Shown piece by piece: positions 21,529 to 45,918 of a stretch of 64,000 nucleotides of DNA. The position numbers and the translations under genes are program-made. Every line of letters begins with the position of its first letter. Within the stretch, counting starts at the first letter, position 1. Source of the DNA: Haliclona indistincta (taxonomy: Eukaryota; Porifera; Demospongiae; Haplosclerida; Chalinidae); assembly GCA_964017065.1 (NCBI GenBank), contig OZ024789.1, forward strand, positions 7,506,191 through 7,570,190, given 5' to 3'. Below the pieces are notes generated by a model. That model did no database searches. It was not told the origin of the DNA and worked only from the letters and a program-made list of their open reading frames with translations.

Positions 21529-23944
21529 TTATAGTGTGTGCAATGGTGCATTTGCACAATTTTGCCTATCAAACAAAACAAAACTTGAACCTGTAGAATT
21601 TTTCCCAAAAAATAAAATTCTACAGGCATTTTTTACTTTGCCGCACAGTTTAAGAATTATTGTGTTATTGTGAAATTCAGTAAAGGAGCCAGTGCATCGA
21701 TCTTGCAATTGAAACTTCTGTACTGCATTGTTGAAAGAAGAGTCAGAAATAGCTTCAAATACCGACAACAGATATTGGCAGTCGAGCAGTAGCAGTGGTG
21801 TAGATAAAGAAATGACATCAATTTGTCTATTCAGACTCATTTTGAAGAAATTAGATACTGTTTCAATGGAAGTGATCAACGATTTTGGATTTAAATTCAC
21901 ATGAGCACCTAAAGAACAGTGTTTGTAAAGATTCAGATCGTCAGTTACTTCACCAATAATGGATCCCCCCAAAAATAACGTCACTTTAGACTCAACATTT
22001 AGACTTGCAAATGCTGAGAAATTTAAGAACTTACTATCAATTAGTAATGCATCCACTGGCAATTGAAGTGTTATTTCTGCTAAGTTTTTTCGCCAGCTTG
22101 ATATTACCTTAAAATTATCAGCAAATTCATTGATGTACTTGACTCTCATGGCTGTTACAACTGATAAAGTTATTACAACAGAGGTTAAATTTGGAAATGG
22201 ATTGGGTATGTTCTTTGTAAGCAACTCCAATGAAGGAGAATCCTCTGTGATAAACAAATGTGTTATGGTGGTATGAATAATAGGAACCAAAAGTTCAAAA
22301 TCTTGATTCTGAAGATAAGTCAGCGATATGATATAATGCCGTTGGAAATCTAGTACTGTTCCGAAAAGCTGAGAATAAATCTCGACTAACAAATCTTCAT
22401 GTCCAGACTCTATACTACACCGTGCTAAGTACTTTAACCGACCAGTCCAACCACGGTATTTAAGCAATGTTACAAAAACTTGACGGACCAGTGTGCTGTT
22501 CGAAGAGTACATCTGGCAAGCAAAGTAGAGATACCTAGAGTTAAAAGAAGTACGCTGTCCAATGCCATAAACGTCATTCTCTCTAAATGTATAAAAAGCT
22601 GCCCAAAATTCTTGAAAGATGAAATGCGGAAAAGAGAATTTTTGATGAACTGGCCGTTCATGTCCATAATAACTGGGAGGTAATAAACCAAAGCTATCAC
22701 CAGATGGTAAGTATAATGAAAGCTCCTTTGCAGAAAACTGAGTTCTTAAAGATTTATGCTTAAAGTTTTTAGCTGCATCTATGTCAATAATAGCCAAGTT
22801 ATTAAAAGCCAAGCGAGAGATATTAGTAATTGCATCAGCAAGGTCTTGGTTACACTCTCTGATAGAATAGAAGTTACTTAAGGTAATATTGTAACAACCT
22901 TCTTCACTTGAATTTCGTCTCATCATTTCCTGTTCTAAAGCACATGAAAGTGCTCTTGTATATGCATCTGCTAAAGTTACTGGAAAGTTAGTTTTATGAT
23001 GTTCAATGCTCACTAAAAAAACAGTGAGATGAAGAGGCGAAGTACACAATTTTTTGATATCAGGCAGTCTTTCTAGATAATCCAAAAATCTTTCGGCAAG
23101 GGTATGATCACGAATATTTTCATTGACATACTCTGTTATGGCGTTAGAATTAAAGCCAATCAAATCGTATGCCCGAAAGCCACTGGTTCCACTTATCTTA
23201 AAGAAATTTTTATATGCCTCAGGTCTAGATAGCACAATAACTGTAGCAGAAGGAAGCTCTTTGCCAGTAATGATCCTGTATATGTAGTTGTTGTCATCTT
23301 TGTATGCTGGAGGATATAGATCTAGGCCATCAAATATAATGCAAAGATTTGTAGCATTTTCCAGTTCTGACAAATAGTCGACAACTTCTTTTTCTAAGTG
23401 TTTAATAGTGCCATTAATGCTCAGAATGTCTAACAAACTTATGTCTTGTCTCTCAGGATGAAATTCTTCCATAGGAATTCGCAATAGTATAGGGCATTTA
23501 GCAATTTTCGAATTTTTAATTTTACTAGTCCAATCTTTAATGAGTCTTATGGCTAGAGTAGTTTTTCCGCTGCCAGGTATGCCTTGAATTAGAATACGCT
23601 GACCAGAAGCTGTAAACCTAAAGAAAGTGTCAAACTGAAGCTCTGTCCTGTCTTGCTGCTGTGATTCTTGGCTGGTGAAGTCGTAAAGCACTGGTGAAAT
23701 AAAATTCACAGCAGTCTTGTTATAAAACAGAAAGACTATACCAGGAACTTCATACTGATTCTTGTAAATGTAATGAGATTTCAAATCTTTTATGTACTTC
23801 AAAACAGGCTTTGGCATGCTTCCAACTGGATAGAGTTGACGGTAACAACAACCAGAGACAATAACAATGAAAAGTGCAAATACACAGGCATAGGAGATGG
23901 TGCTCTTCGTAGGTCCATCAGATCTTTTTATGACAATATTTTCA
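21529..23944 (-). CDS. TM-NACHT exon of DEATH-TM-NACHT gene A
   Basis: The exon opens at acceptor TTTTTGTTTTTAG (exon base 23944) with one base to finish a codon, then about 804 codons. Order: basic stretch (VIKRSDGPTK), one membrane segment (SYACVFALFIVIVSGCC, about 23896-23846), the linker VPGIVFLFYNKTAVNFISPV shared with copy B, a NACHT domain with Walker A GIPGSGKTT (about 23585) and Walker B LCIIFDGLDLYPP (about 23330), a GxP-like motif (LCTSPLHL), and a helical region with FPHFIFQEFWAAF, typical of NLR proteins. One copy of the ~500-residue post-NACHT module ends the protein. No leucine-rich repeats are recognisable. The GLDE glutamate is Leu here. An internal ATG (MPKP) would lose the membrane segment. 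I join it to the death-domain exon at 28903-29228. Confidence 0.9.
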
Positions 23945-24186
23945 CTAAAAACAAAAAGGTTAAAATATCATTACTGTAGGTGGTAATGAAAGAAATGCTG
24001 GATTGCCCCTTTGCTAACAGAAAAGGGTGAGGTTACAGGTGAAACAACATACAGGTGGCACACCAACAAATACAGTGTTCCACATGAAGAGAGGGGAAAA
24101 TTGTGTGTTTGATAATATTGCTTTATTTATCTGTCCTAGAGTTGTGATGTATGTATCATTTTGATCGTCTATCCTTACTGAATAAA

Positions 24187-24562
24187 GAAAATTAAAAAGA
24201 TTTCTATCGAAATCAAAAGGATTTAGGGTTGTGAAATCTACCACTGGTCCACAATGTAAACTAACAAGGAACAAGCATGGAATGGTAACACGATTGACTT
24301 GCTAACTGACCATAGATCCCTACATCAGTGGCTGCTGTGATTGCAAGTTCAGCTATAGTGTTGACTGACACCTGACGTGTATTCAGCTTGTAACAAACCA
24401 TTGCTCTTATGTACAGCCACTGATGTAGGGATCTATGGTCTGTTAGCAAGTTAATCGTGTTACCATTCCATGCTTGTTCCTTGTTAGTTTACATTGTGGA
24501 CCAGTGGTAGATTTCACAACCCTACATCCTTTTGATTTAGATAGAAATCTTTTTAATTTTCT
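24187..24562. mobile_element. Foldback element
   Basis: GAAAATTAAAAAGATTTCTA at the left is inverse to the right end. Arms of ~145 bp include CCACTGGTCCACAATG and ACCATAGATCCCTACATCAG; the centre is ~90 bp. Its end motif CCTTTTGATTTCG also recurs at 28150 and 40637. Confidence 0.75.
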
Positions 24563-24742
24563 TGTTTGTGTCCTTTTGTATTTTTCAGCGAAGTGCAGTT
24601 CAATATCATACACGTACTGAGCCGTCTTTGTTTCCACCATTGGTTTATTTTTCCTGTTGTTGATGGCTTTTCTTTATTATTAACAATTTTAGCTTGTATC
24701 TAAAAATAATTGTTATGCTGTACATATCAGCTCGCCTAAGCA

Positions 24743-24783
24743 TGCATGCATATCGCATGCATATCGCATGCATATCGCATGCA
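24743..24783. repeat. GCATGCATATC tandem repeat
   Basis: About four units of GCATGCATATC, themselves partly palindromic. Confidence 0.8.
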
Positions 24784-25392
24784 TGCAGTGCATACGAGCC
24801 CCGCCCACACTTGATGTAGAGACCTGTACGGCGGTTATAATTATCTGGCAAGCGCAGAATGGCAATCCTACTCGAGCTTACCGTTCTTCGAAGACTCCAG
24901 ACAAATATGTGTTCTCCGTCATCCATACGGCGGGACGATACTCAAGCTAGTGCTTGGTCACGTGTGCTATAGTGCTTGGTCATGTGCGTATTGCGCAATC
25001 GCAATAATGGCGTCTAACACTTAGCTGACAATGGATCACGATCGAGAACTCGCAGAATTTAGATCGCCGTTTCGCTAAAAACAATATTCAAAAGGCACCT
25101 GCCAGGAGAATTTCACAACTGTTCGTGAGTGTTTTGGTCTCGGCACCACTCGCGTAAAGTCGCTAGGCGAGTAGAAGAAAGAAGAAGAAAATGAAGATGA
25201 CGAAAGTCGATTTTCACCGTTTCCAGGTTCGTCACTTTAGTAACAATTTCGAGCAATCTCCTTGCTACTGTAAGATGGGGCAACGCCAGTGAGCAGATCT
25301 AAGTGTCTTTCATCACCAGGCGAAATATCAGTGTTTGAACGCTAATACATTGTATGTAGCCGCCATCTTGTTTTTCCGTTCAACCCTACATA

Positions 25393-25413
25393 GGGAGGCA
25401 CTACCGTGCCTCC
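25393..25413. repeat. Small hairpin GGGAGGCA...TGCCTCCC
   Basis: A short, perfect inverted repeat with a CTACCG loop in otherwise unremarkable intron sequence; possibly a MITE end remnant. Confidence 0.5.
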
Positions 25414-25763
25414 CTCATTATGCTTCATATGGCTTCTTGTCAGATGACACACACGTGACATAAATTTGGAAGACAGGCAGCCATTTGGAAAAACACGTTA
25501 GGGAAAGGATCTCAGGGACTACTGGTTATCGCTGCATTTAAGGTTTCACCTCGGATGCTTATCTGTTGGCAGCGAGATTGGTCCCAATCAGTGCTACATC
25601 GGTGACAGAAAGCAAAAGTTGGATGTTCACGACGAACATAACATTAGGAACAGGAATTCCAGTTCTACTGGTAGTTAAACTCTGAAACTTCATGACTGCA
25701 ATGCTAAAACATTAATCATGAAAGTAGATCTCACCTAGTGTTTCTAGAAAGCATGCGACAAGC

Positions 25764-26322
25764 TAGTGTTGTACTGGTATACTAATACTAAAACTAAAAC
25801 ACCTTATACTAGAGGGTATTTTGTTCTAGTATACTAAACTAATACTAATACTAGAAGATCACTCATGGCTGTACTAAACTAAAACTAGAACTATAAGTAA
25901 ATTCTCACTCTAAACTAAACCATAACTAAATGTTTTTTCAACTAGTTTTAGTGTCCAGCTTTCTCAGCCCCAGCCAGTAGAGCGTGTTTTTTCGACAGTA
26001 GGAGAAGCTACAACTGAAAGTGAAATCGACTAACAGATTTAAAGTTAGAGCGTGAAGTATTTCTTAGGCAAAATAAAAAGTACTTGTGACTGTACAATCA
26101 TGTGTACTTGTATAGAATACCCAATTTTATATCAAAACTATAATTCAATTTGGTGTACTAAAACTAAACCAAATTAAATGTGTTATAGTATACTATACTA
26201 ATACTATAACTAAAACATATGAAAGTGATTACTAGAACTAAAACTAAAACTAGAATAAATTTATCCTGAGAAAAATACTAATACTAATACTAAAATGGAA
26301 TCTGGCTACTAAAACAACACTA
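25764..26322. mobile_element. hAT element relic with 8-bp target duplication
   Basis: The ends TAGTGTTGT and ACAACACTA are flanked by perfect CGACAAGC at 25756-25763 and 26323-26330. The interior is full of ACTAAAAC/ACTAATAC motifs in both orientations. At about 25975-26095 (+) it retains a coding scrap reading PVERVFSTVGEA and, after a frameshift, NRLTDLKLEREVF, which matches the hAT C-terminal dimerisation domain. It is internally deleted and not autonomous. Confidence 0.85.
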
Positions 26323-27084
26323 CGACAAGCGCGACTTCATTTTGCATGAGAGCAGGTTTTTGGCGACCATGTTGCTATTGACATGACGTCATACATTTCA
26401 TAACATTATTCCCTCTCTTTGTGTGGAACACTGTATCTTGCTAAACACAGTCGCCAAGAATAAATCAAATTTAAATAATTATAGGCTAGACTCTAGTCTT
26501 ATTGACCGACGAGATTGACTACAGCTTGGATTCTAAATAGCTTAGTATCCATGCTTGCTATTCTATTCAACACGGCGTCTTCTTTTTTGAGCAAACAGTT
26601 ATACTGTCGTATCTCGGAAAACATACGATTTATGCACTTATACTTTCTATTTAGCTTCTCTAAGCTTAAGCACTTCCCAAAGTAGCACTGACACATTGCT
26701 GAAAAATGGAGCGTCGTCACTAACTTTCAAGTTCAAATGACTACACACTCTCGTACGAGTTTTGTTCCACAGCAGAAATGCTGATACTGCTGGCTTCCAA
26801 AATAGACGCACCTTGCGTTATGTGCTCGGGACGTTTATACCATCAGTTTCTGCGGTAAAATAAATCCTGTATTACCCTCCTTTTTATATAATGTATTTCC
26901 GTATTTCAAGTTGATGGTTAATAGATACACTAGTAATAAGGGCAACCAAACAGGTAAACCCTTTTGTGTTACCTGCTGGATGTTGGGTTGTCTGACGAGT
27001 ATTTCTCACATTCACTAAAAAGAGAAACAAATTGGGTGACTAAAAGAGAGGGGTCATTTTAATTGGTATGGTAATTAGTTGAGC

Positions 27085-27688
27085 CAGGAGCGTACAAGAG
27101 GATGGAGCATTCAACTGTATAACCAAAAAGTCCACCACTTGCGCTGATGCATAAGACATAAGACTTTGGCTGAACACTCGCTTGTTTTAGCTGGAGATGG
27201 GCAGGAACAAGCATGAATGAATGTATAGGTAGGAAATAAACGAGCCACAATGCACAAAGAAAGGCCCAAGTTCCAAGTAGCAACAGTGCATGGAGGCGGA
27301 CTTTAGACTTCGTTGTAGCCCAGGCAACCGTAAGATCAAAGGCGCCGCTCAGTGATTATATCTCGTATACCATAGGAAATACGAGTATTTTCCAGGAATT
27401 GACGTCACATAGTAACACCGTAGCAACAAGATGGTGTCGTCGAAAAATGCATGCAAGATTACACTGCCGTCTTTCAGCAACGCGCTGTCATTCGCCTCTG
27501 GTGACTTCTATGGAGGCTCTACTACCTTGAGCGCTTCATTTAGTATCCATAAGATTTTACTGCCCTCGTGCGCTTCGCGCCCTCGGGCGGTAAAATTAAC
27601 CCCCTTGGTTATATCGTGTACCGCCTCGGTTGCCATGGTTGCTATAGTGAATACAACAGTCGAACACTTCTTTCTTTATACGCTCCTG
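27085..27688. mobile_element. MITE of the CAGGAGCGTA family with 7-bp target duplication
   Basis: Starts CAGGAGCGTACAAG, ends TTTATACGCTCCTG, flanked by GTTGAGC at 27078-27084 and 27689-27695. It is longer than the ~250-bp norm because other sequence, including a TTTTACTGCCCTCG hairpin near 27555-27596, lies inside. Confidence 0.75.
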
Positions 27689-27766
27689 GTTGAGCTCATA
27701 GCTACAGCAGACCAAAAAGAAACAAATGTCAGTGACACAATGTGTAACTGTATACTATAATATAAT

Positions 27767-28038
27767 ACTGAGAGTCTTATGTGCAGCCACTGAAGATGCG
27801 CTCTGCTTCAAGCCAAGGACATTTTCGAGGCCATGACGGATCCTTTTTTCGATACTTTGCTTGAGTCGTGAGTTATCACCGATAAAGCGAGAAAACATTA
27901 ATACATAGTGGCTTTCTTGTTATCGATGATAACTCATGACTCAAGCAAAATATCGTAAAAAGGATCCATCATGCCCTCAAAAACGTCCTTGGCTTGAAGC
28001 AGAGCGCTTCTTCAGTGGCTGCACACAAGACTCTCAGT
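27767..28038. mobile_element. Foldback element
   Basis: ACTGAGAGTCTTATGTGCAG and its inverse end two ~130-bp arms that include TTCAAGCCAAGGAC and GAGTTATCACCGATAA, with the centre near 27905. Confidence 0.8.
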
Positions 28039-28439
28039 CAACACCACTATTCCTGGCCTATAGCCAGTAAAGCAGCACTGATGTAAGGAAGCATGGTCTA
28101 TTATCCAGTCAATCGTGTTACCATTCCATGCTAGTGGCAGATTTTTTCATCCTTTTGATTTCGTTAGAAATCTTTTTAATTTCTTTTTATTCTATAGAAT
28201 AACACAAGTGGAACAGTGCTGGGCTTGTTAGGTTTTTGCGGAACAGTATTAGAACAGTGTTAGGCTTAGGCTTAGAACAGTGTTAGGTTTTTGTATAGGC
28301 TTAGTCAAGTGGAACAGTGTTTTTTTGTAAACTAAGCCTAATCACTACCATTCAGGTATACGTCACATCAATCAGCTCATTACTAAGCATGCTCAATGAA
28401 GAGAAGTAGCTATGCAGTCAATTGAATAACAAGTACATA

Positions 28440-28689
28440 CAGGAGCGTATAAGGGGGAGGAGTGTGCAACTGACATATTCCATAATTTCCCTATTTCAAT
28501 TAAAGTTCGCCGCCGTGCACTGATGCGTCTTTCCATTCATCCACATTTTGTCCTGCTCGTCTCCAACTAAAACAATTTAAGCAAGCGGAAAGCCAGTCAC
28601 AATCGCCGCCTACCAAAACCTTTTTGCATCATATAGTGCAGACTTTGGAATCAATAGAGTTGGACGTTCCTTCCCCTTATACGCTCCTG
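28440..28689. mobile_element. MITE of the CAGGAGCGTATAAGGGG family
   Basis: Complete ~250-bp copy with both ends. It sits in a block shared with 40625-41200, so it predates the segmental duplication. No target duplication is visible. Confidence 0.8.
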
Positions 28690-28902
28690 ACTATGATTAA
28701 TTATACGTATGGTATGTTTACCCAGCAATAAATTAACCATAACTTTTGATCAGAATGAGCTATAAAAATGATTCAAGTTTCAAATTACTCTTTAGAAGCT
28801 GAGCTTTAGTATGGTATAATTTTATGGTATATACTGCCTATTTTTCATTACACTACGGTACTATGATGTACAGTATAAAGGTTATTCTGCTATCTAGCTT
28901 AC

Positions 28903-29228
28903 CGAAGAGCTTTCTTAAACTTCTTTAGTGTTGCATCCTTGTCGGCTTTCAGCCACGCGTCGAACATATCCAGCAAGCACGTCCTTGACGAGTTTGGTTT
29001 CCCAGCGTTGTTATATTGAATTTCGTTCAGTTTACCAGGCTCCAATCCTGATCGAGTGCCAAGCTCTCTCCATTGATCAGCACTCAACTTTCTCTTGTCA
29101 AAAAGAGTCTGCAGATCAGTGACGGTCACCCGAGGCTGAGTCCTTGACGGTCCCTTACGGCCACCTGAGTCACAGTCCTTGTTTGACTTTGAGTTGCCTC
29201 GGCGTCTACCTCGGCGTCGTCCTGGCAT
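28903..29228 (-). CDS. Death-domain exon of gene A
   Basis: The ATG at 29228 is the start shared by all three copies. It opens about 25 Arg/Lys/Ser-rich residues (MPGRRRGRRRGNSKSNK), then a death domain: VTDLQTLFDKRKLSADQWRELG, then LEPGKLNEIQ, LLDMFDAWLKAD and ATLKKFKKAL. The frame meets TAA directly after KKALR, but that TAA lies in CTTCG-GTAAGC, a strong splice donor in phase 2. Splicing to the acceptor at 23945 gives KKALR followed by ENIVIKRS in frame. Death domains bind other death domains in apoptotic or NF-kB-type signalling. The alternative is a free-standing 109-residue death-domain protein. Confidence 0.82.
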
Positions 29229-29314
29229 GCTCACGGAATCCTGGATCCTAGGCCTAGCAGTTGACACTCTCTCCACGCCTACAAAAAGCACGTACCTGAC
29301 TGCTGTGCTTGTTT

Positions 29315-29690
29315 ACAGCGCAGCGCTTTGCAGTTAGGTTGTCAGAAGCAAGCAGACAGAGTCTAGCTTGTGGTTTATACAGTGCACATACTTGTTTATA
29401 ATGATATTCACAATGCGTGGGTGTCTGTTTGTGGTACATCATTGTGTACATGTACTGCAGTTTGCAAGTTGGTTGTCATGGTCAATGGGTTATCAGGTGT
29501 GGCTAGTAGCCACACCTGATAATATTGTGCAATACAGGGAAGCCCTGTATAGCTGTTATCACAGGCTAACCACACATTCACATTCTTGCATTGACTATGA
29601 CAACCAACTTACAAACTGCAGTATACTGTATCAAGACCACAAGCTAGACTCTGTCTGCTTGCTTCTGACAACCTACCTGCAAAGCGCTGT
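29315..29690. mobile_element. Foldback element 5' of the gene A death-domain exon
   Basis: ACAGCGCAGCGCTTTGCAG and its inverse bound arms that include CAGACAGAGTCTAGCTTGTG and TTGGTTGTCATGGTCAATG, with a tight ATCAGGTGTGGCTA hairpin near 29490-29519. It is absent from the other two death-domain copies, so it inserted after duplication, within ~90 bp of the start codon. Confidence 0.8.
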
Positions 29691-30168
29691 ATATCAGATT
29701 GCAGAAACGTGAATAAAGGCTTGTTTTCAGCCAAAAAAAAAACTTGCATTGTTTATGGTAGACGTAAACTTACTAGCAATCCATCTCGTAGACAGCAATA
29801 CGCTCCACCATCATGACCATAATATATTTGCCATCGCAAACATAATGTATTGGATTTCATGAACTACAATGAAGTGCAATTAATGACTTCCATCATAGAG
29901 ATCAAGAAGGGTCAGCTGCTAAACTAGTGGGCCGAATTGGCACGTTGGCTCCGACATATTACAGGAGATGTGCTTAGGACTTTAGAATAATTAACAGGCA
30001 GTCAGTGAAGCACTGAAAAAACAAACATTTACAATAATAAAATTAAAGTTCAGTACACACAGAATGAGAATCACTCTCACACACACAAAGTGTTGAAAAG
30101 CACAAATCGTATACACACACAACAGACTCGAAACAGCCCTTTATAATACACTGGTAGACTGATTCTTC

Positions 30169-31174: not shown

Positions 31175-31213
31175 GATGATCAACCTTGTGCTCGACCTAG
31201 CTTGCTCTTCCAA

Positions 31214-33256: not shown

Positions 33257-36200
33257 TTATTGTGAATGCAAATATCTATATGCACAATCTTCAAGTTTTA
33301 ATTGTTGGTCATATGTATACATCAGGCCTGAGTATAGATCCAGTATAGACACTTTACTATTGTTGGCACTCCTTAGACTAATGAGTACTTTGCTGCTATC
33401 ATTCTTGTTAGGGAGTGATAGAAAAGTTACAGATGACTTAGTGCAATGGTCGAACATAGTGAAATCTTGAATTGCATTGGAAAATAGTAGGCTGAAAAAT
33501 GTCCGGACATATTGGCAGTTAAGAAATGGAACTGGTGTGACGGAGTCAATGTACAGTTTGGACAGTTTATAATAGCTGGTAAAGTTCACCAGGGCAGATA
33601 AGAACAGGTTTGGTGTTATTAGTTGAAGTGTAGGCAAAGATTTCCATTCTGAAGAACAGTTGGCATACGTGCCCAACTCTTCAGGCACTTTACCAAGAAG
33701 AGATCCAGCTACAATTATGCTCATATCTCCAACATCAATATCAACCATCCCATAAAATAAATCAAAGAAATCTTGATCAATGAACACATTTAATGGCAAA
33801 GCCCATTCTAATCGAGGTATCTTCTTTTCCCTAGTGAATATCAGTCTTAAATTGTCGATGAAATCAAATGGGTACTTGAATGTGCCATTTTCAGAAACAA
33901 TTATTATGGTGGTTAGGTTTAGGTTCGGAAACAAGTCAGTTATGTTGTCTACGTAAGGTCTCAATGAAGGAGAATGCTGAGTGAGGACTATCTCTGTAAT
34001 ATTGGAGTGAATAGTGTTAATAAAGGACTTGACTTTTACAAGTTGAGGAGTATAACGAGTTAGATATTTTAAGTCCAATACTGTTCCATGCACTTTAAAA
34101 TATGTCTCAGCAAGTAGCTGATTGCTGTATCCAGATTCAAAACCACAAATTGAGTAGTCTTGCAACATACGAGTCCATCGAAAACGAAGCAACATCTGAA
34201 AAATTTCATTGAGCACTGTTGTGTTGGAAGAATACATGCCGCAAACGGTGTATAAAAAGTTTGGGTGCAGAAAAATGCGATCTACAATTTTAGAGACATT
34301 AAACTTCACAACCACTGTTACATGAAAAGCTGCCCAAAATTCTTGAACAACAATATGTGGAAAAACGAATTTCTTAACCAGTTTGCCATATTCATTTGTA
34401 CTATAGCGAGGAGACAGTAGCCCATAGGTGTTGCCAGAGGGTATGTATGAGTGAAGTTCCGTGTCAAGAAATTCAGTTTGAGTTGAGTTAGAGGCCCCAA
34501 AGCTGTCAAATGCTAGCCTAGAAATATTAGTAATTATGTCTGCAAGATCACTGTTACATTCTCGAAGAGAAGAAAGGTCATATAAATGAATGTCAGAGCA
34601 GGCTGCTGCAGGTGAATTTTGCTGTGTAATTTCTTGTTTGAAAGTGTTCGATTGTGAGTTGACACATGCCTCTGTTAATGATTCATCTGTATCCTTCAAG
34701 TTCTTTACAATCATAGCAAGGTGAAGTGGATTAGAACACATTCGAGATACTTCAGGATATTTACAAACTCGAAAACCATGTAATAACTTTTGTTTATACT
34801 TTGTGTAAATATCCAGTAGGCCTGAGTGGAGATCCATTATCAACATGCTAGAACCATTGGCACTGTTAAGTCCAATGAAAACATTATCAACTGAGTATTT
34901 TACAAATGAATCAGTGCAAAGGTCACGCATAGTAAAATCTTGCATTGCACTAGAAAAAGATAGCATGTGAATATCTTTGAAAAAGTTCTGAATGTACTGG
35001 CAGTCAAGAAATGGAACTGGTGTGACAAACTCGATCTTTATTGTAGACATTTTGAAGTAACTGGTGAAGTTCTGTATGGCAAATAAGAATGCGTATGGTG
35101 ATAAGTTAATTGTAGGCCAGGATTCCCATGTTGAATAACAGCTTGTGTAACTGTCTAAATCTTTAGGCACTTTAGCAAGAGATCCAGCTACAATTATGTT
35201 CATATCTCCAACATCAATATCAACCATCCTATAAAACAAATCAAAGAAATTTTGATCAATTAACACATCTAACGGCAAAGCCCAAACTAATCGAGATAAC
35301 TTCTTTTCCCTAGTGAATATCAGTTTTAAATTGTCGACGAAATCAAATGGATACTTGTCACTAACATTTCTAGAAAATGTGACTTGTATGGTGGTTTGGT
35401 TCAGGTTTGGAAACAAGTCAGTTATGTTGTCTACGTATGGTCTCAATGAAGGAGAATGCTGATAAAAGACTATCTCTGTAATATTCGTGTGAATAGTGTT
35501 AATAAAGGACTTGACTTTAACAAGTTGAGGAGTATAATGAGTTAGATTATTTAAGTCCAATACTGTTCCATGCACTTTAAAATATGTCTCAGCAAGTAGC
35601 TGATCACTATATCCAGACTCAAAACCACACATTGTGTAGTCATGCAACATATTAAGTAAATGTAAGACTGCTGTGTTGGAAGAATACATACCGCAAACAA
35701 AGTACAAAAAGTTTCGGTGTAGATAAAAGTGTTGCATAAATTCAGGCACGTTAAACTTCGCAACCACTGTTACATGAAAAGCTGCCCAAAATTCTTGAAC
35801 AACAATATGTGGAAAAACAAATTTCTTTAGCAGTTCAGCGTTCTTTACGTCCAGTTCATTGTTCTCTACCAGTCCAATGTTCTTTAACAGTTCAATGTTC
35901 TTTATCAGTTCAATGTCTGTACTATAGCAAGGAGACAGTAGCCCATAGGTGTTGCCGGAGGGTAAGTATGTGTGAAGTTCTGTGACAGAAAATTCAGTTT
36001 GAGCCAAGCCAAAGCTGTCAAATGCTAGCCTAGAAATATTAGTGATCGTGTCTGCAAGATCACTGTTACATTCTCGAAGAGAAACAAGGTCATACAAATG
36101 AATGCTAGAACAAGCTGCTGCAGATGAATTTTGCTGTATAATTTCTTGTTTGATGACTTTCGATTGTGAGTTGACACATGCCTCTGTTAATGATGAAAAT

Positions 36201-39200
36201 TCAAGTTTATCTTTAAAGCCTTTAACAAGCATAGCAAGGTGAAGCGGATAGGTACACAGTCGAAATGATTCTGGATATGTCGACCAAACTGGAACATTTT
36301 CCTCATAAATTTGCAGCTGGCCCGAGTAGAGATCTAGTATACATTTCATGTTATAGTCATTGCCACTCTTTAGCCTAATATAGGCTTTGTCATCATCAAC
36401 TGATCGAGATAAGTATCTTACAAATGAATCAGTGCAAAGGTCTTGCATAGTGAAATTTTGAATGGCCAATGATGTACGAAGAGCCTTGAAGAGCGTCTGA
36501 ATGTACTGGTGGTCAAGAAATGGAACAGGGGTGTAACAAACTACATCAACTTTGGACAGTTTATAGTAACTGATAAATTTATCCAGAGCATATAGGAATG
36601 TGTGTGGTGTCAAGTTAATAGCAGGCCAGGATTTCCATGCTGAATAACAGTTCTTGTAATTGTCCAAATCTTTAGGTACTTCACCAACTAGAGATCCAAC
36701 TACAGTTATGTTCACATCTCCTATATCAATATCAACCATTCCATAAAACAAATCCAAGAAGTCTTGATCAATTAACACATCTAAAGACAGGATCCATTTT
36801 ACTTTTAGCAATCTTCTTTGCCTTGTGAACAACAGTCTTAAGTTGTCGATGAAATCAAATGGGTACTCAGTAGAATCACTCTTATGAACTACTCGTATGG
36901 TGACTAGGTTTAGGTTTGGGAAAAAATCAGTTACGTTACTTATGCATGGCCTCAATGAAGGAGAATGCTGCGTGAGGACAATCTGTGTAATATTGGAGTT
37001 GATAGCGTTAAAAAAGGATCGAGCCTTTACAAGTTGAGGTGTTAAGTTTTCCACGTTTAACACTGTCCCGTGCAGTTTAATAAATGTCTCAGCAAGTAGC
37101 TGATTGCTGTATCCTGACTCAAAGCCACAAATTGAGTAGTCTTGCAACATACGAGTCCATCGAAAATGAAGCAACATCTGAAAAATTTCATTAAGCACTG
37201 TTGTGTTGGAGGAATACATGCCGCAAACAGTGTATAAAAAGTTCGGGTGCAGGAAAATGTGATCTATAAATTTAGAGGCATTAAACTTCGCAACCACTGT
37301 TACATGAAAAGCTGCCCAAAATTCTTGAACAACAATATGTGGAAAAACGAATTTCTTATCCAGTTTGCCATATTCATCTGTACTATAGCGAGGTGACAGT
37401 AGCCCATAGGTGTTGCCAGAGGGTAAGTATGAGTGAAGTTCCGTGTCAAGAAATTCAGTTTGAGTTGAGTTAGAGGCCCCAAAGCTGTCAAATGCTAGCC
37501 TAGAAATATTAGTAATTGTGTCTGCAAGATCACTGTTACATTCTCGAAGAGAAGAAAGGTCATATAAATGAATGTCAGAGCAGGCTGCTGCAGGTGAATT
37601 TTGCTGTGTAATTTCTTGTTTGAAAGTGTTTGATTGTGAGTTGACACATGCCTCTGTTATTGATGAAAATTCATCTGTATCTTCAATAATCATAGCAAGG
37701 TGAAGTGGATTAGAACACATTCGAGATACTTCAGGATATTTACAAACTCGAACACCTATGTAGTCTGTTTGCTTGTAAATATGCAGTAAGCCTGAATGGA
37801 ATTTCATTATCAATATGTTAGAATCATTGGAACTGTTTAGTTCAATGAAAACTTCATCGTCATTAACTAGCTCGTACAACAGGTATGAATCAGTGCAATG
37901 GTCATGCATAATGAAATATTGCATTGCATCATAAAAAGATAGCATGTGAATATCTTCGAAAAAGTTCTGAATGTACTGGCAGTCAAGAAATGGAACTGGT
38001 GTGACAAATACGATCCTTAATGTAGACAGTTTGAAGTAACTGGTGAAGTTCTGTATGGCAAATAAGAATGTGTATGGTGATAAGTTAATAGTAGGCCAGG
38101 ATTCCCATGTTGAATAACAGCTTGTGTAACTGTCTAAATCTTTAGGCACTTTATCAAGAAGAGATCCCAATAAAGTTATGTTCATATCTCTTACATCAAT
38201 AGCAACCGATTTATTAAACAAATCAAAGAAATCTTGATCAATGAGTACATTCAATGGCAACATCCATTTTAATTGTAGTAATCTTCTTTGCCTTGTCAAT
38301 ATCAGGCTTAAGTTGTCGATGAACTCAAATGGGTACTCAGTAGTACCGTTTTCATAAACAGTGACTGTTATGGTGACTATGTTTAAGTTAGGAAACAAGT
38401 CAGTTATGTTGTCTACGTAAGGTCTCAATGAAGGAGAATGCTGAGTGAGGACTATCTCTGTAATATTGGAGTGAATGGTGTTAATAAAGGACTTGACTTT
38501 TACAAGTTGAGGAGTATAACGAGTTAGATTATTTAAGTCCAATACTGTTCCATGCACTTTAAAATATGTCTCAGCAAGTAGTTGATCACTGTATCCTGAC
38601 TCAAAACCACACATTGTGTAGTCATAGAACATACGAGTCGTTTCAAACTTAAGCAGCATTTGAAAAACTTGCTCAAGCACTGCTGTGTTAGAAGAATACA
38701 TGCCACAAACAAAGTAAAAAAAGTTTGGGTGCAGAAAGATGTGCTCTTCAAATTCAGAGATTTCAACCTCTGCAATTATTTTAACATAAAAAGCTGCCCA
38801 AAATTCTTGAACAACAATATGAGGAAAGGAAAACTTTTTAACCACAGTACCATATTCATCTGTACCATAGTAAAGAGATAGTAACCCATAGGTATAGAAG
38901 GAGGGCAAGTATGAGTGAACTTCTGTACTGAGAAATCGAGTTTGAGTTGAATTGTAGGTCATAAAGCTGTCAAATGCTAGCCTAGAAACATTAGCAATCG
39001 TGTCTGCAAGATCAGAGTTACATTCTTGGAAAAAAGAGAAGTCATATATTGAGCGAATTTTGGAACAGGTAGATGTAGTTAGATCTTGTCGCGTAATTTC
39101 TCGTTTGACGGCTTTTGATAGAGACTTGACATATGCCTCTGTTAAAGATGACGAAAACACATTCGTAGCTTTGAAGCTTTCTACAAACATTGCCAGGTGA

Positions 39201-39215
39201 AGGGGAAAAGCACAC
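33257..39215 (-). repeat. Four ~1.46-1.52-kb coding tandem repeats
   Basis: Module edges by the PLHLAM landmark: 39215-37720, 37720-36260, 36260-34745, 34745-33257. Nucleotide identity is high; the segments 34318-34509 (module 4) and 37300-37491 (module 2) are almost identical, so conversion or recent duplication has acted. Module 3 lacks about 11 residues after CGMYSSNTAVL and has gained a small in-frame repeat (KNIELLKNIGL, 35820-35935). Confidence 0.9.
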
Positions 39216-40115
39216 AGTTTATACAATTCTGGATATTCATTGAAATGACTGCCAAACCTACAAGCATTCTCATCATTATCTATGTTTATTTTCACATATT
39301 CATTAATTCCCTCGCAATTAAAACCACCAAGTTCATATAACTGATATCCACTTTGTCCACTTGTTTTAAAGAATGTTTCATAAGCTTCTGGTCTTGAGAA
39401 TACTATAACTGTGGCAGTAGGAAGCTGTTCGCGAACAATGATCTTGTATATGAAGTTACTGGGATCATTGTATGCTGGAGGGTATTCATCTAAACCATCA
39501 AATATAATGCAAAGATTCACTGCATTTCTTGGTTCTGACAGATAATCAACTAGGTTTTTGTCTACAGTTTTAATGTTGTCATTCATACTCAGAAGGTCTG
39601 ATAAGCTTAAGGCTGGTCCTTTCCTTTCCATTTCTTTCAGTGTAACACGTAACAAAAGAAGGCAATCAGAAACTTTTGAATTCCTTCTACCACTGGACCA
39701 TTCCTTAGTAAGCCTATTGACTAATGTAGTTTTGCCTGTGCCTGGTCTGCCTTGAATTAGAATGCGTTGACCAAGAGCCGTATATTCGAAAAGGTTGTCA
39801 AAACGAAATTCTGAGCAGTCGGTGTCATTCTGACGGATATCTAACTTGAAAAAGACCGGAGAAATAAAGTTCACAGCCGTCTTGTTGTACCAAAGAAATT
39901 CTATACCAGGAACCTCAGGAAGGTTATTGTAAAGAGATTGCAGATTCTCTATGTACCCGAGAAGAAACTGTGGTTGGGGCTCAACCGGATTCATTAGATG
40001 ATAGTGATAACAGCCGGAAATAATACTAATAATCGAACTGACAAGTGATACCACTAGTAGAAGCCTAATACATTTTGTCCTTCGCGCCACAGGATGGTGT
40101 TTATGTTCACAGTCA
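33257..40115 (-). CDS. TM-NACHT exon of gene B with four tandem post-NACHT modules
   Basis: One uninterrupted 6.86-kb exon of about 2,285 codons. It starts after acceptor TTTTTATGACAG with one base to complete a codon; the ORF upstream to 40189 is probably intron. Order: basic HKHHPVARRTK, one membrane segment (LLLVVSLVSSIISIISG, about 40063-40016), the VPGIEFLWYNKTAVNFISPV linker, NACHT with Walker A GRPGTGKTT (about 39750) and Walker B LCIIFDGLDEYPP (about 39510), then four copies of a ~495-residue module. Each starts at a C-x-x-PLHLAM motif (39215, 37720, 36260, 34745) and contains ECNSDLAD, TNISRLAFDSF, FPHIVVQEFWAAF, CGMYSSNT, CGFESGY and DCQYIQ-type blocks. Only the first follows an NTPase core. 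Spliced to a death-domain exon the product would be ~2,390 residues. No stops interrupt the repeats, which suggests selection. Confidence 0.9.
35820..35935 (-). repeat. In-frame coding minisatellite in module 3
   Basis: AGTTCAATGTTCTTTA-type units encode tandem (I/L)-KNIEL-like residues just before FVFPHIVVQEFW. The unit is specific to module 3, and the length change keeps the frame. Confidence 0.75.
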
Positions 40116-40808
40116 CTGTCATAAAAATAAAATATGCTATTACATATGAGACAATAATATGGCATAATTTTGTTAGGGCAGAGACCCATAATTATTTCAG
40201 CGATCTATATCTACTATAAGGGTATAAATGTAGAGGTTTACAATATCATGCAGTGGTTTGCGCTACGTTGCGTTGCCAATTCAAATTGTAATGCAATGCA
40301 ACATGACACAGAATGTAGAAATAGCTGTGATTCCAATAGGTTACAATTCTCTGTCTATGGCTGTAAAAAGCTATGGCAATACCATCACTACCACACTGCG
40401 AAATAGAGGGCAGGTCCTCTCCCGCATCGCACCCGCCCCCTTTTTCGTTTTGCGAGAGAGGGTCATAGCGCGCTAGGCTATACCATCACAGTGTTTACAC
40501 TAAAACGATCAAACAAAAACCGAGAATGTTTGTGGATTGAACAGCAGCGTTTTGGTTGTTTACACTACTCCGTTTTTTTTGCCAACGGAAGTCATGGAAT
40601 GTAGGCGTGTCGATTTCTCCATCCCTACATACTAAGGACCTTTTGATTTCGTTAGAAATCTTTTTAATTTTCTATTTATTCTACAGGAACAGTGTTTTTA
40701 TAAACTAAGCCTACTCACAACCATTCAGGTATAAGTCACAGCAATCAGCTAATAATACTAATGAAGAGGAGTAGCTATGCAGTCAATTGAATAATCAACA
40801 AGTGTATA

Positions 40809-41063
40809 CAGGAGCATACAAGGGGAGCAGTGTGCAACTGCCATATTCCATGCACTGTTGCTACTTGGGCCTTTCTTAATGCGTCTTTCCTACCTTTACA
40901 TTCATCCACATTTCGTCCTGCTCGTCTCCAACTAAAACAATTTAAGCGAGCGGTAAGCCAGAATCACGATCGGCATCGCCGCCTACAAAAAACCTTTTTG
41001 TATCACATAGGGCAGACTTTGGCATTAGTAGAGTTGGACGTTCCTTCCCCTTATACGCTCCTG
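40809..41063. mobile_element. MITE of the CAGGAGCGTATAAGGGG family
   Basis: Both ends present (CAGGAGCATACAAGGGG and CCTTATACGCTCCTG). It is the paralogous partner of the copy at 28440-28689. Confidence 0.8.
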
Positions 41064-41642
41064 ACAATGGTATGTTTACCCTTAGCTATAAAATTAACCA
41101 TAACTTTTGATCAGAATGAGCTATAAACATGATTCAAGTTTCAAATTACTCTTTAGAAGCTGAGCTTTGATAATTATGGTACTGCCTATTTTTCAAGAAA
41201 CTCAGTAAGACGGAAAATAGTTCATTAACACCTTGAGGTCGGCAAAATTCAAATCTGAAGTATCTGCCTGACTATAACAGTGCAGCATTACGCGCAAAAT
41301 CATGTGCATATTAATTAGCTACCTGGTTAGCCTTGTCCCCAGACTCAGAACCTGGGGACGAGGCTAGCTGCCTGGTCTTCTATCAAGCTCTTCAAAACAC
41401 ACACCACTATAACCATGCTTTAGACCACAGCTAAGCGTCACTGACCAACCAGATTGCGTAGCTGCGGGTCTCTATTTCTCGTAGTGGAATCCCGCCACTA
41501 CCGCGACTCTATAGTGGAATCCCACCACACGGCGCAGATTACGGTTCTGTGAGCGGAGTTCTACTGAATAATTTTTACAACGCTCGCGTGTCCTTGCTCG
41601 TCGTTCGCGTCGTTTCTGTTTGCTGTTGCTATGGTCTAAATC

Positions 41643-41785
41643 AGTTAGACAGTGCATCCAATCGGATCTACGCGATGTAGAAGCCCTCGCGCCGTTACCA
41701 TAGCGCCCTCGCTACGCTCGGACGCTATATAGCAACGGCTCTCGGGCTTCTAAATCGCGTAGATCCTCGGATGCGCTGTCTAACT
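41643..41785. mobile_element. 143-bp hairpin MITE
   Basis: AGTTAGACAGTGCATCC and its inverse end arms that include GATCTACGCGAT and GAAGCCC, with a short CG-rich centre. Confidence 0.7.
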
Positions 41786-42719
41786 ATTATTTATGCCACG
41801 CGGTAGACGTGGCATATTTAGGGTTGGGCGGAAAACAAGATGGCGGCTACACGTAGGCTAAACGCAATAATTCACGTATATCTTGGCTGTTGACGACATC
41901 AGGGGTATTTTAACTACCTAGGGGCTATCCTAAAAGGTAAGCGCTTACAATGAGTCTACTAATAAAGACTATAAAGCCAGGTGCTATGGGCATGAAAAGA
42001 TGGCGTCTCGCCTGGAGGCACTATTACGGCACTGCCATATCTTCGCCGTACGGGCGTTTCAAGCTAATCTAACGTTCTAAAGCTCTTTGCACGATTTGTG
42101 CGATTATAAAGAGACCTTCAGAAGCAAAAGAAACCAGGTCTAAGGTGGTAAACCAGAGTTCACGTGGTCACCCGGCCGTTTGTTCATCTTCTTTCTTCTT
42201 CTTCTTATTCTTCTTCAGAGAGCCTAGCGCCGTGGCTAGTGAGCTATTCAAGACAAAAACTACACAGAAACTACACTAGTCGTTGTGATCAGTGCACCTG
42301 ATATCTATTTAAGCCTAAAACACTAGCAGAAGCGAGTATTTTCAGGAAAACAGCGAATTTTGGTCCATAATCAGACTCCATTTCATCATTCTGTTTGAAC
42401 TCCGTTACTAGGTTACGCCTACTCGCGCACGCTCGTGTATGAAATTATTCTAATACAAGCGCACCTTAGTACAAATTGCTTGGAACGCGAGTGCTGCTGA
42501 CACTACTAGCAGTGTTCACAGCAGACAACGAGCAAATCGTCACTGTTACACTGGATTTGTCTGTTCAGGCTTGTAAGAATGTTAGCTTAAGCTTAGCTAA
42601 TGTTGCATGGTACGTGTTGCATGCAGTGCAGAGTCGATCCAGTGCAGTCAGTGGAATAGTTCTCTTTACACTGTATTAGCATAAGTGGCAACTAAGTCAT
42701 TAATAAAAAAAGAAAAGAA

Positions 42720-43015
42720 ACAAGTAATAAAAACATTTTAACCAAAATGCAAGAGATTTAGGGTTGGTACATTTATCGAAAAAGTATGGAAACAAGATTT
42801 TGAAATGAAAAGCGGTATTGTAACAATAGCAGTGTAATGCTACCTCCCTAAATTAACTGCTTTCGATAGTTGTGGTTAATTTAATAGGGAGGTAGCATTA
42901 CACTGCTATTGTTACAATACCGCTTTTCATTTCAAAATCTTGTTTCCATACTTTTTCGATAAATGTACCAACCCTAAATCTCTTGCATTTTGGTTAAAAT
43001 GTTTTTATTACTTGT
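42720..43015. mobile_element. 296-bp perfect-stem MITE
   Basis: ACAAGTAATAAAAACATTTT and its inverse end ~135-bp arms that pair essentially perfectly (for example GGTTGGTACATTTATCG, GTATTGTAACAATAGCAG). It truncates the helicase ORF at 43016. Confidence 0.85.
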
Positions 43016-43300
43016 ATATTTACTGCTACGAAGCAAGTTGAAGATACTTGGTAGGACTAGGTAGCAAAGAGACTTCCCAGCGCCTGTGGGAAGAGAAATA
43101 AGCACGTCTCGCCCTGCTACGAAATTGACCACGACTTCTTGCTGCTCAGCCGACAAACACGCGAATATCCAAGCTGTTTGGCGCTCTTCGATATCGATTC
43201 CATGATAGCACTCCTTGGGTAAGCCATGATCAATGCAAGTGGTGGTCGCGTGCAGGTCATGTGAATTTTTTGAAATACTGCAATCTGATTGGTATTTCAC
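43016..43300 (-). pseudogene. RecQ-like helicase N-terminal fragment
   Basis: The frame reads LSAEQQEVVVNFVAGRDVLI and then SLPTGAGKSLCY, the Q-like motif and motif I (Walker A, TGAGKS) of RecQ-family helicases, plus about 15 residues. It stops at the hairpin MITE, and none of motifs Ia-VI follow. Multi-copy helicases of this kind are common in invertebrate genomes; whether this comes from a gene or a transposon is open. Confidence 0.6.
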
Positions 43301-43388
43301 AAAAAAGGGTCTGGGGACGAGACTCGACTACTAGCATCTATGGTACTAGTGATGTGATAGTATTACTAGTACATTCATGGAATGGCAG

Positions 43389-44175
43389 GGGCAAGCCTGA
43401 GCATTGATATAATTTAGCCTCGTTAGTGTATAGTTGTGTATTGTTATTTGCACCAGGTTATGTGGTGAGTCCAGATTTTAGTAGATAAGTCTGTATTATG
43501 TGAACACCAGTTTCACCACAGATAATTATTTGTGCTATAAAGTTAATATTTATTGTTTATGGTGAATAGAATCAATATTTTGGTTATGTTCAGATATGGT
43601 GCACTTTCTCCAACTATCTCTTGCTGAGTGTGTTCCTTGCCTAGGCGTCATGGGAACAATGTACCTGGAAGATGTGATGAGTAGGGTTCCTCGGTCTCCT
43701 CACTCACTGCAGGCTCTACTGCTATCACACACGAGCTCATTAGACGTACCTAAGTTACTGTTTGCTCTGTTGCCGGCGGAAAGCAGTAGCTACTGCTTTC
43801 CGCCGGCGTCTCCAGTAGGCCCTTTGATATTCCTTTTGTCGCTCCAGTCGTCTGCTTCCACGTTGATTGGGTGACTCTGCCTCTCGTCGTCGCTTTCTGG
43901 TAGCGGCCTTGTCGTGTAAAGTTGTTGCTTTTTAGGTGTCTCTGATCTCTGTTGTTGTCGTCCCTGAGTCATCTGCATCATTGCCAGAATGCCAGGTATC
44001 TTGTTTGAAACCAAGCGCCAATTATAATGTGCGCACGTGCTAAAAAGGGCGTTTCCTAGTTATCGGGAACATTGAAAAAGACAAACGCTACCCCGTGACA
44101 GATAGATTGATAGATACATTCCCCGCCGCGTGGGCCATTGTGCCAATCAATGTGGGGCTCGCTCAGGCTCGCCCC
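43389..44175. mobile_element. Copy 2 of the GGGGCGAGCCTGAGC-ended element
   Basis: Shares with 11638-12091 the left end (GGGGCAAGCCTGAGCAT), the AACGCTACCCCG...GATAGAT...CATTCCCCGC block and the right end GCTCAGGCTCGCCCC. It contains a 74-codon minus ORF (44014-43790, Gln/Pro/Asp-rich, unrecognised) and a 36-bp perfect palindrome. Confidence 0.55.
43772..43807. repeat. 36-bp perfect palindrome
   Basis: GCCGGCGGAAAGCAGTAG followed exactly by its inverse, with no spacer. Confidence 0.95.
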
Positions 44176-44210
44176 AATTAGTATAAAGCTTATTATGCTA
44201 TCTAGCTTAC

Positions 44211-44521
44211 CTAAGAGCTTTCTTAAACTTGTTTAGTGTTGCATCCTCGCCGGCCGACTCGATTTTCAGCCACGCGTCTAACATCTCCAGCAAGCACATC
44301 CTTGACGAGTTTGGTTTCCCAGCGTTGTCACTTTGAATTTCGTTCAGTATACCCGGCTCCAATCCTAATCGAGTGCCAAGCTCTTTCCATTGATCAGCAC
44401 TCAACTTTCTCTTGTCAAAAAGATCCTGCAGATCACTGACGGTCACCTGAGTCCTTGACGGTCCCTCGCGGCTGCCTGAGTCCTTGTTTGACTGACGTCT
44501 ACTTCGGCGTCGTCCTGGCAT
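44211..44521 (-). CDS. Death-domain exon B1 of gene B
   Basis: MPGRRRSRRQSNK-type basic leader, then the same death domain as copy A (VSDLQDLFDKRKLSADQWKE, LEPGILNEIQ, CLLEMLDAWLK, ATLNKFKKAL) with a five-residue insertion (IESAGE) before DATLN. The frame ends in the donor CTTAG-GTAAGC at phase 2, compatible with the acceptor at 40116 (codon AGT, giving KKALS then DCEHKH). It is the nearer of two candidate first exons. About 100 bp upstream (TCCTTGACGG, CAGCCTGCAGAATCTTTTAG) is conserved with copy B2. Confidence 0.8.
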
Positions 44522-45086
44522 GCCCACTGTGACGGAATCCTGGATCCTAGGCTACTGAGCAGCTGACACTCTCCACTCCACGCGTATAAGGAACCGTCAA
44601 GGATTCAGCTTAGCCTGCAGAATCTTTTAGATCTAATTATGTAGGCTATGAATATTAAGGTGGCGGGTGGGGTATTTAATATTCATGAAATTCATCAGTT
44701 GTTCTCTGCAGGCCTGCTTGCAATGAATAATGTTTAGTCTGCCCACGTGTTATGATACGCGGGAATTCAATAGGCCAGTTGCGTGTAAGAGCCAAGGAAT
44801 TTAATTATTGATAATTGAACGTAAAGTCACTTCCGGACTGCTCGTAGCCGCCTACTTGTACCTTAGCCTCGTCCCCAGGCTCTCGATAGCTTTGGGAGGC
44901 GGGGCATGGGGACGAGGCTAACTTGTTGTACCTACTTTGTATGGAGTTCATTGAGAAAATATGAGTTTTTAAAACTTCGCGGGCAGCCAAAACTTGGCGC
45001 ATGTGCAGGATCTAAGAATGCGATGCGCAACTACTACCATTGGCACATGCAACGCAGTAAAAACAGAGACGATCGGTGGAGGCGCG

Positions 45087-45320
45087 GTCGAGAACGAGCC
45101 ATCACTGTACAGCTAGGTAAGCCAATGTGACGAGCGATGAAAACGCGAATACTAACACAGCTTAACTAATGGTAAAGCAAGATGCTCACTAGATTGCTCG
45201 AGAGACAGTGAAAGGTGACAGATTTGATACTTACATTGCGAGTGATGACAATCTAGGCACGCATTTTGCCTCTGACAAAAAGAGCATACCCAGCTGTACA
45301 GTGATGGCTCGTTCTCGACC
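45087..45320. repeat. Inverted repeat running into the assembly gap
   Basis: 45087-45115 (GGTCGAGAACGAGCCATCAC and on) returns as an exact inverse at 45292-45320, the last bases before the Ns. The stem therefore continues into the gap. Confidence 0.85.
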
Positions 45321-45520
45321 NNNNNNNNNNNNNNNNNNNNNNNNNNNNNNNNNNNNNNNNNNNNNNNNNNNNNNNNNNNNNNNNNNNNNNNNNNNNNNNN
45401 NNNNNNNNNNNNNNNNNNNNNNNNNNNNNNNNNNNNNNNNNNNNNNNNNNNNNNNNNNNNNNNNNNNNNNNNNNNNNNNNNNNNNNNNNNNNNNNNNNNN
45501 NNNNNNNNNNNNNNNNNNNN
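45321..45520. other. Assembly gap (200 N)
   Basis: Exactly 200 undetermined bases; the length is probably nominal. It lies between the two death-domain exons of gene B. Confidence 0.99.
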
Positions 45521-45616
45521 TCTGCCCGACTATAACAGTGCAACATTACTACACTATGGTACCGGTACTGTACTAGTGATGTGATAGTATAAAGCTTATT
45601 ATGCTATCTAGCTTAC

Positions 45617-45918
45617 CTAAGAGCTTTCTTAAACTTGTTTAGTGTTGCATCCTCGTCGGCTTTCAGCCACGCGTCGAACATCCCCAGCAAGCACATCCTT
45701 GACGAGTTTGGTCTCCAAGCGTTGTCACTTTGAATTTCGTTCAGTATAACCGGCTCCAATCCTAATCGAGTGCCAAGCTCTGGCCATTGACCAGCATTCA
45801 ACTTTCTCTTGTCAAAAAGATCCTGCAGATCCCTGACGGTCACCTGAATCCTTGACGGTCCCTCGCGGCCGCCGGAGTCCTTGTTTGATTGACTTCTACC
45901 TCGGCGTCGTCCTGGCAT
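45617..45918 (-). CDS. Death-domain exon B2 of gene B
   Basis: MPGRRRGRSQSNKDSGG leader, then VRDLQDLFDKRKLNAGQWPE, LEPVILNEIQ, CLLGMFDAWLKAD and ATLNKFKKAL. It ends in the same phase-2 donor CTTAG-GTAAGC as B1, so it could replace B1 as first exon or belong to a separate transcript. Substitutions at usually conserved core sites (Trp-Pro for Trp-Lys/Arg, Gly-to-Val in LEPGI) hint at relaxation. It starts 406 bp from the ARL8 stop, in the same strand order as in copy A. Confidence 0.75.

Follow-up and report, generated by a model that had tools for sequence, protein, structure and literature searches.

Two genes, designated W1 and W2, were delineated in a 64,000-nucleotide stretch of the genome of the sponge Haliclona indistincta (hereafter the window; GenBank assembly GCA_964017065.1, contig OZ024789.1, positions 7,506,191 to 7,570,190 of the forward strand). 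Comparison with paralogues elsewhere in the assembly indicated that a death domain, a membrane segment and a NACHT ATPase are very likely encoded in a single chain. We propose, with moderate confidence, that W1 and W2 belong to a small subfamily of NLR genes with two exons each, and that they encode single-pass type II receptors. The first exon would encode a shortened, five-helix death domain, and the second exon would encode one membrane helix, the NACHT ATPase, the WHD/HD2 region and a tail resembling leucine-rich repeats (LRRs). In such a receptor the death domain would be cytosolic, and the NLR module would lie on the extracytosolic side, either outside the cell or within the lumen of the secretory pathway. 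The exon order, the intron phase, the open reading frames (ORFs), the hydrophobic helix and the NLR fold as a prediction come from the analysis itself, as does recurrence of the arrangement in nine genes; splicing, topology, ligand binding and signalling are inferred.

Exon structure, paralogues and domains of W1 and W2

The W1 death-domain first exon (28903..29228, minus strand, as are all W1 and W2 features given here) runs from an ATG to a phase-2 donor (CG/GTAAGC, where the slash marks the exon boundary). The second exon (21529..23944) encodes the predicted membrane segment (23845..23901), the NACHT domain (23107..23598), WHD/HD2 and a weakly LRR-like tail, and ends in a stop codon. In W2 the second exon (33257..40115) encodes the predicted membrane segment (40016..40072), the NACHT domain (39290..39766) and four C-terminal NLR modules followed by a stop codon, and two death-domain exons lie upstream of it, an upstream copy at 45617..45918 and a downstream copy at 44211..44521. 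The original prediction held that the stops of the three death-domain ORFs form part of GTAAGC donors that leave two bases of a codon, and that both NACHT exons open at an acceptor with the single base that completes it. A base-by-base check bore this out. The W1 death-domain exon ends in CTTCG/GTAAGC, with 28903 as its last base, and the W2 exons end at 44211 and 45617 in CTTAG/GTAAGC, each leaving two codon bases; the NACHT exons begin at 23944 (...TTTTTAG/T GAA) and 40115 (...GACAG/T GAC), each supplying one. The open frames of the NACHT exons are 812 aa in W1 and 2315 aa in W2, and the joined chains would read in continuous frame for 913 aa in W1 and 2386 aa in W2 (from the upstream death-domain copy), across introns that by their coordinates measure 4958 bp in W1 and 4095 or 5501 bp in W2.

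By itself the window is ambiguous as to whether these exons belong to one gene, because the introns are long. The 144.0 Mb assembly that contains the window was searched. The W1 NACHT exon as query returned 18 rows, some of them clustered at about 5.26-5.35 Mb of contig C6, and the W1 death domain as a separate query also returned 18 rows, 7 of which lay within that same cluster. Six genes of the cluster, designated a, b, c, f, g and h, each consist of a death-domain exon followed by a membrane-NACHT exon, and in all six the death-domain exon has a phase-2 GT donor and the next exon a one-base start. Their introns measure 51, 54, 49, 1425, 55 and about 3050 bp, respectively (128 bases of the gene h intron were not read). 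A distant relative on contig C1 (the C1 gene, 28% identical to W1) has the same order, with a Death match of 18.8 bits and a 53 bp intron. Exon order and matching intron phase thus agree in nine of nine genes (W1, W2, the six C6 genes and the C1 gene), and five of the paralogues have in-phase introns of 49-55 bp. Random pairing of abundant death-domain and NACHT exons was rejected because of these five introns of about 50 bp and the phase match in all nine genes. An intermediate exon carrying death-domain helix 6 was also ruled out in the five short-intron genes, where there is too little space for one. The claim that one chain is encoded, as originally predicted, is thereby supported.

The membrane segment was predicted by hydropathy only, from the best 19-residue window after the exon junction (KD19). 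A hydrophobic helix followed the junction in W1 (KD19 2.24) and W2 (2.33), as had been anticipated. The KD19 peak ranged from 1.76 to 2.61 in W1, W2 and the six C6 genes and reached 3.17 in the C1 gene, so that hydrophobicity of the spanning type was found in nine of nine. Among 15 control NACHT ORFs from the same genome, 14 had nothing above 1.56 before the P-loop, and the single exception (L047, at C1:11.50 Mb) reached 2.95. A value of at least 1.6 was found within the called ORF in 16 of 33 family homologues, most of the others beginning past that point, and no second hydrophobic stretch of at least 1.6 occurred in the seven genes whose NACHT side is long. The membrane segment has been retained despite the diverging sequence among genes.

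Several observations weigh against this gene model. The NACHT of gene a is broken. Copy d (L035, G000:C6:5279007-5282213) retains, as a near-copy of gene c, the death-domain exon, an intron of 49 bp and the membrane segment, and no NACHT was found behind that segment. Two homologue searches, in one of which 51 proteins matched the joined chains, compared ORF calls, which are unable to span introns, and no single ORF with a death domain, a membrane helix and a NACHT was present among the proteins compared. A single ORF of the distant protein P0054, one of the 51, does combine a NACHT with a death domain of similar sequence (blastp E down to 1e-5), but the two are separated by another insert, in which there is no strong hydrophobic helix. 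P0054 is evidence that such death domains accompany a NACHT, though not that they do so in the membrane form. Apart from these objections, another homologue, P0053, resembles the C1 gene and has a hydrophobic stretch at its start. In a 308-aa open frame elsewhere on C6 (L026/L059, G000:C6:6894161-6895084, minus strand), a TRAF-like RING start is fused to a membrane segment and to the first part of a NACHT of the W1/W2 family. The frame looks like a broken chimera, since the RING is seemingly shortened and the NACHT incomplete; in the seven RING relatives checked, of 144 rows, the available part contained neither a hydrophobic helix nor a P-loop.

Profile searches recovered the NACHT domain in both genes (Pfam, 50.0 bits in W1 and 61.8 in W2, cut-off 26.7). 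In W1 the Walker A motif, GIPGSGKT, is intact, and the LDE of Walker B reads LDL. The Death profile matched the three window exons at 18.5, 26.2 and 16.8 bits, one of them over the cut-off of 22.6. Taken singly, the death-domain assignments are weak: across the ten exons of the nine genes the Death scores ranged from 15.6 to 26.2 bits with one of ten above the cut-off; all three window matches cover profile positions 4-71 of 86 and stop at 71; in sequence the domain ends at about helix 5, and five helices were seen in a poor structural model (predicted local distance difference test score, pLDDT, 52.4); and Foldseek found no match to that model at E <= 0.001, the Fas-FADD and TNFR1 rows having E > 1. 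At least 150 Death matches (150 scored of 1372 candidates) and at least 102 NACHT matches (102 scored of 631 candidates) exceeded their cut-offs across the assembly. Both repertoires are very large, an expansion in keeping with a sponge.

In the predicted structure, the NACHT part resembles the NACHT-WHD-HD2 of NLRP3 and NOD2, and the WHD/HD2 region of the NLR fold is present. No Pfam LRR family matched the W1 or W2 protein, and some NLR chains aligned into the tail, as in 7wbt_A (model residues 74-754, root-mean-square deviation 11.2), suggesting a weak LRR-like region. The original prediction had contrasted these genes with NLRs that end in LRRs. The C-terminal part, which had escaped the first reading, is NLR-like in the model, and W1 and W2 are, by predicted fold, NLRs that carry a membrane segment rather than proteins without an NLR tail. 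In W2 a single NACHT is followed, over 33260-39247, by four tandem NLR modules of 487-506 aa that are 62-74% identical: module 1 at 37751..39247 (499 aa), module 2 at 36290..37750 (487 aa), module 3 at 34772..36289 (506 aa) and module 4 at 33260..34771 (504 aa). We know of no other NLR with one NACHT and tandem C-terminal NLR modules of this kind.

Orientation of the chain in the membrane

With one membrane helix, the death domain and the NACHT would lie on opposite faces of the membrane. Over 30 residues to either side of the helix, the death-domain flank contained more lysine and arginine than the NACHT flank in all nine genes; over the nearest 15 residues it did so in eight of nine, with one tie. 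N-glycosylation motifs (sequons) were counted in the 480 aa from the P-loop and compared with the reversed motif and with a shuffling expectation. Seven family genes contained 46 sequons, against 24 reversed and 28 expected (1.6-fold), whereas 14 other NACHTs contained 30, against 24 reversed and 29 expected (1.0-fold). The 22 homologues contained 160 (81 reversed, 95 expected), and eight top-scoring NACHT loci, mostly near-copies, contained 3 (6 reversed, 14 expected). One sequon, N-I/V-S, which in most rows stands ahead of RLAF, KLAF or ELAF, was present in all 23 aligned rows, and a second occurred in 19 of them; reversed motifs were never conserved above 0.65. Eleven cysteine columns were conserved in at least 70% of aligned rows. 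Taken together, the charge and sequon data favor, short of proof, a death domain in the cytosol and an NLR part on the extracytosolic side.

Other measurements count against this orientation. Net charge over 15 residues favored type II in five genes, was equal in three (W1, h and the C1 gene) and was reversed in f. Sequons were also raised in the non-membrane rows L022, L024 and L025 (9 seen, 4 reversed, 5.4 expected) and in 16 other NACHT proteins (58 seen, 45 reversed, 42 expected), and the C1 gene had 8 against 6 reversed. The sequon excess is present in these counts, yet it is not specific to the W1/W2 family. Total cysteine was 7-12 per 480 aa, compared with 7-18 in controls, and the conserved cysteines are no proof of disulphides because the counts are not above those of controls. 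Given one chain, we prefer a type II topology in which the NLR module lies outside, a reading that is fairly likely but tempered because non-membrane NACHTs show raised sequons and because net charge was even or reversed in four of nine genes.

Well-studied NLRs function in the cytosol and use cytosolic ATP, which speaks for the strongest alternative, a single chain whose NACHT is cytosolic, although we regard it as unlikely. The helix would then not cross the membrane, or the chain would be inverted with the death domain outside, and W1 and W2 would be membrane-tethered but otherwise ordinary death-domain NLRs. In favor of this alternative, every aligned row has an intact GK(S/T) core in its Walker A motif. 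The unspecific sequon ratio and the net charge, type II in just five of nine, point the same way, and the sea cucumber AjNLRC4 is reported to have a cytosolic NACHT (PMC8699970). Crossing-type hydrophobicity in nine of nine genes speaks against the alternative, as does the sequon conserved in every row, and a death domain outside would run counter to the lysine and arginine trend in nine of nine.

Copying of the first exon and divergence of the second

A tree was built from 40 NACHT sequences, gene a being omitted as too short. One 19-row clade in it (support 99/95) contained W1, W2, genes b, c, f, g and h, the C1 gene and 11 homologues. The C1 gene lay on a long branch, and its placement is less certain. 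The membrane NACHT L047 fell outside the W1/W2 clade. At its locus (L047/L055, G000:C1:11497559-11505000) a death-domain exon (17.4 bits) precedes the membrane NACHT by about 2.4 kb, and donor and acceptor are both in phase 1. This locus is a candidate for a second, independent origin of the DEATH-transmembrane (TM)-NACHT order, a case that is weaker because of the long intron.

An intron block common to W1 and W2, noted in the original prediction, was confirmed. The 5' part of the W1 intron (28311..28847) matches a block in the W2 intron (40686..41195) at 79% over 562 columns, and 28151-28197 matches 40639-40686. Upstream of the death-domain exons, a stretch in W1 (29904..30043) has an 85% counterpart in W2 (46044..46200). 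Matches to the intron block, short pieces included, numbered 56 in the genome. At full length the block was found at two places, both in the window, and a repeat element was thus ruled out as the origin of the entire block. Pairwise synonymous divergence (dS) was 0.03-0.11 among the three window death-domain exons and 1.46 between the W1 and W2 NACHT exons, which led to the rejection of a recent whole-gene duplication as the origin of the block. Because the death-domain dS is far below that of the NACHT exons, and because the upstream stretch and the intron block are shared, the comparison indicates that recent copying between two old genes involved a 5' cassette, made up of the death-domain exon and the start of the intron.

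The membrane-NACHT exons had ratios of nonsynonymous to synonymous divergence (dN/dS) of 0.27-0.54 in 21 pairs, dS being close to 1 or higher in most of them, and older death-domain pairs had ratios of 0.17-0.63. The window death-domain pairs gave 0.98, 1.01 and 2.22, from few changes, and genes f and h gave 1.00 for theirs. Because the ratio is about 1 or above in these recent copies, some of them may be decaying, which detracts from the proposed receptor. It is quite improbable, in our estimation, that the family is real while one or both window genes do not work as drawn, with the cassette-copied death-domain exons relaxed and W2 enlarged by modules. Such a state would fit the dN/dS of 0.98 to 2.22 at a dS of 0.03-0.11, the two death-domain exons ahead of one NACHT exon in W2, and the sister copies a and d, which are broken or cut short. 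Against it, all three death-domain frames, their donors and both NACHT frames (812 and 2315 aa) are intact, and the W1-W2 NACHT pair has a dN/dS of 0.35, at a dS near saturation.

The original prediction also found no convincing initiator in either NACHT exon. This holds for W1, which has no Met ahead of the membrane segment and has one after it at residue 51, but not for W2, which has in-frame Mets at residues 6 and 14, ahead of the segment, as well as one after it at residue 71. That the death-domain exons belong to other transcripts, and that the NACHT exons give soluble NLRs from a separate promoter and a Met downstream of the hydrophobic segment, is very improbable: these Mets, window introns of 4-5.5 kb that could house other exons and a genome rich in death domains and NACHTs would allow it, but the five paralogues with 49-55 bp introns of matching phase, the agreement in nine of nine genes and the retention of a hydrophobic segment whose sequence diverges all argue against it.

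The introns also contain long inverted repeats at 24185-24563, 27767-28038 and 42711-43024 (86-93% over 274-383 bases) that are like palindromic transposable elements. A fragment of a DEAD/DEAH helicase start in the W2 intron (42974-43327; 25.4 bits, just below cut-off) is perhaps a piece of a mobile element. Elsewhere in the window, at 15759-17415, two neighbouring plus-strand ORFs carry multicopper oxidase domains (PF00394, 48.4 bits; PF07731, 96.4 bits).

Relation to known NLRs and death receptors

The comparisons that follow draw on the parts of the cited papers that were available to us. NLRs of the DEATH-NACHT(-LRR) type, termed NLRD, are known from sponges, sea urchin and amphioxus (PMC12909245, PMC11508797). 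W1 and W2 share with them an N-terminal death domain before the NACHT, an NLR core and a lineage expansion with some clusters. They differ in the hydrophobic helix that separates death domain and NACHT, which would place the two on opposite faces, in a tail that is weakly LRR-like and in a shortened death domain. In Dysidea avara, NLR architectures that include transmembrane domains are described, the first report being credited to Amphimedon queenslandica (PMC12909245), and an NLR with a predicted TM was among the most strongly up-regulated responders to microbial patterns (PMC6208332). Halichondria panicea has membrane-bound members in every receptor class (PMC8242945), and anemone NLRs with three to five N-terminal TMs are reported (PMC5094078). 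Membrane segments are common to these proteins and to W1 and W2, which differ in that their helix is single and is preceded by a death domain.

Sea cucumber AjNLR-new has an extracellular NACHT and an intracellular immunoglobulin (Ig) domain (PMC13133943), the layout opposite to that of the older AjNLRC4 (PMC8699970). Compared by description, AjNLR-new resembles the proposed receptor in having the NACHT outside and the signalling part inside, and differs in having Ig in place of the death domain and two TMs. In sea urchin, 2A-like signal sequences can route NLRs to the secretory pathway (PMC4981915). The likeness lies in possible entry into that pathway; the urchin N-terminal signal is partly separated by translational recoding, and no death domain precedes a membrane anchor. 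The statement that NLRs are normally soluble, made in the original prediction, thus stands as a general rule, with published exceptions in sponges (PMC12909245, PMC6208332), anemones (PMC5094078) and sea cucumber (PMC13133943, PMC8699970). As far as these sources go, membrane NLRs in sponges and anemones and an extracellular NACHT in sea cucumber are already known, and the W1/W2 layout is a variant. Searches of the open literature, as text without figures, supplements or subscription papers, yielded no account of a chain with the DEATH-TM-NACHT order or of the topology of such a chain.

Fas and TNFR1 are type I death receptors with a cysteine-rich ectodomain, one TM and a cytosolic death domain. 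In the proposed topology W1 and W2 would likewise have an extracellular sensor, one TM and a cytosolic death domain, although they would be type II and have an NLR as ectodomain. The outer NLR module would bind a microbial or damage ligand, and ligand-bound modules, perhaps with extracellular ATP, would cluster. Clustering would gather the cytosolic death domains, which would then recruit death-fold adaptors or caspases. More tentatively, these proteins could be 'inside-out' NLRs, in which an ATP-dependent switch outside the cell or in an endosome, forming a type II head, drives a cytosolic death domain; their two halves would evolve independently, the first exon passing between loci as a cassette and the NLR exon diverging, and the order would perhaps have arisen twice, as the locus at C1:11.50 Mb hints. 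If so, extracellular ATP would be part of the signal, and a death receptor-like protein would have been built from an NLR.

Textbooks present NLRs as sensors of the cytosol and death receptors as sensors at the cell surface. Nine genes with this arrangement were located in one genome. A chain joining both, with an outer NLR, would if true mean that the NACHT switch can also function outside the cytosol, and it would connect these two kinds of receptor in an early-branching animal.

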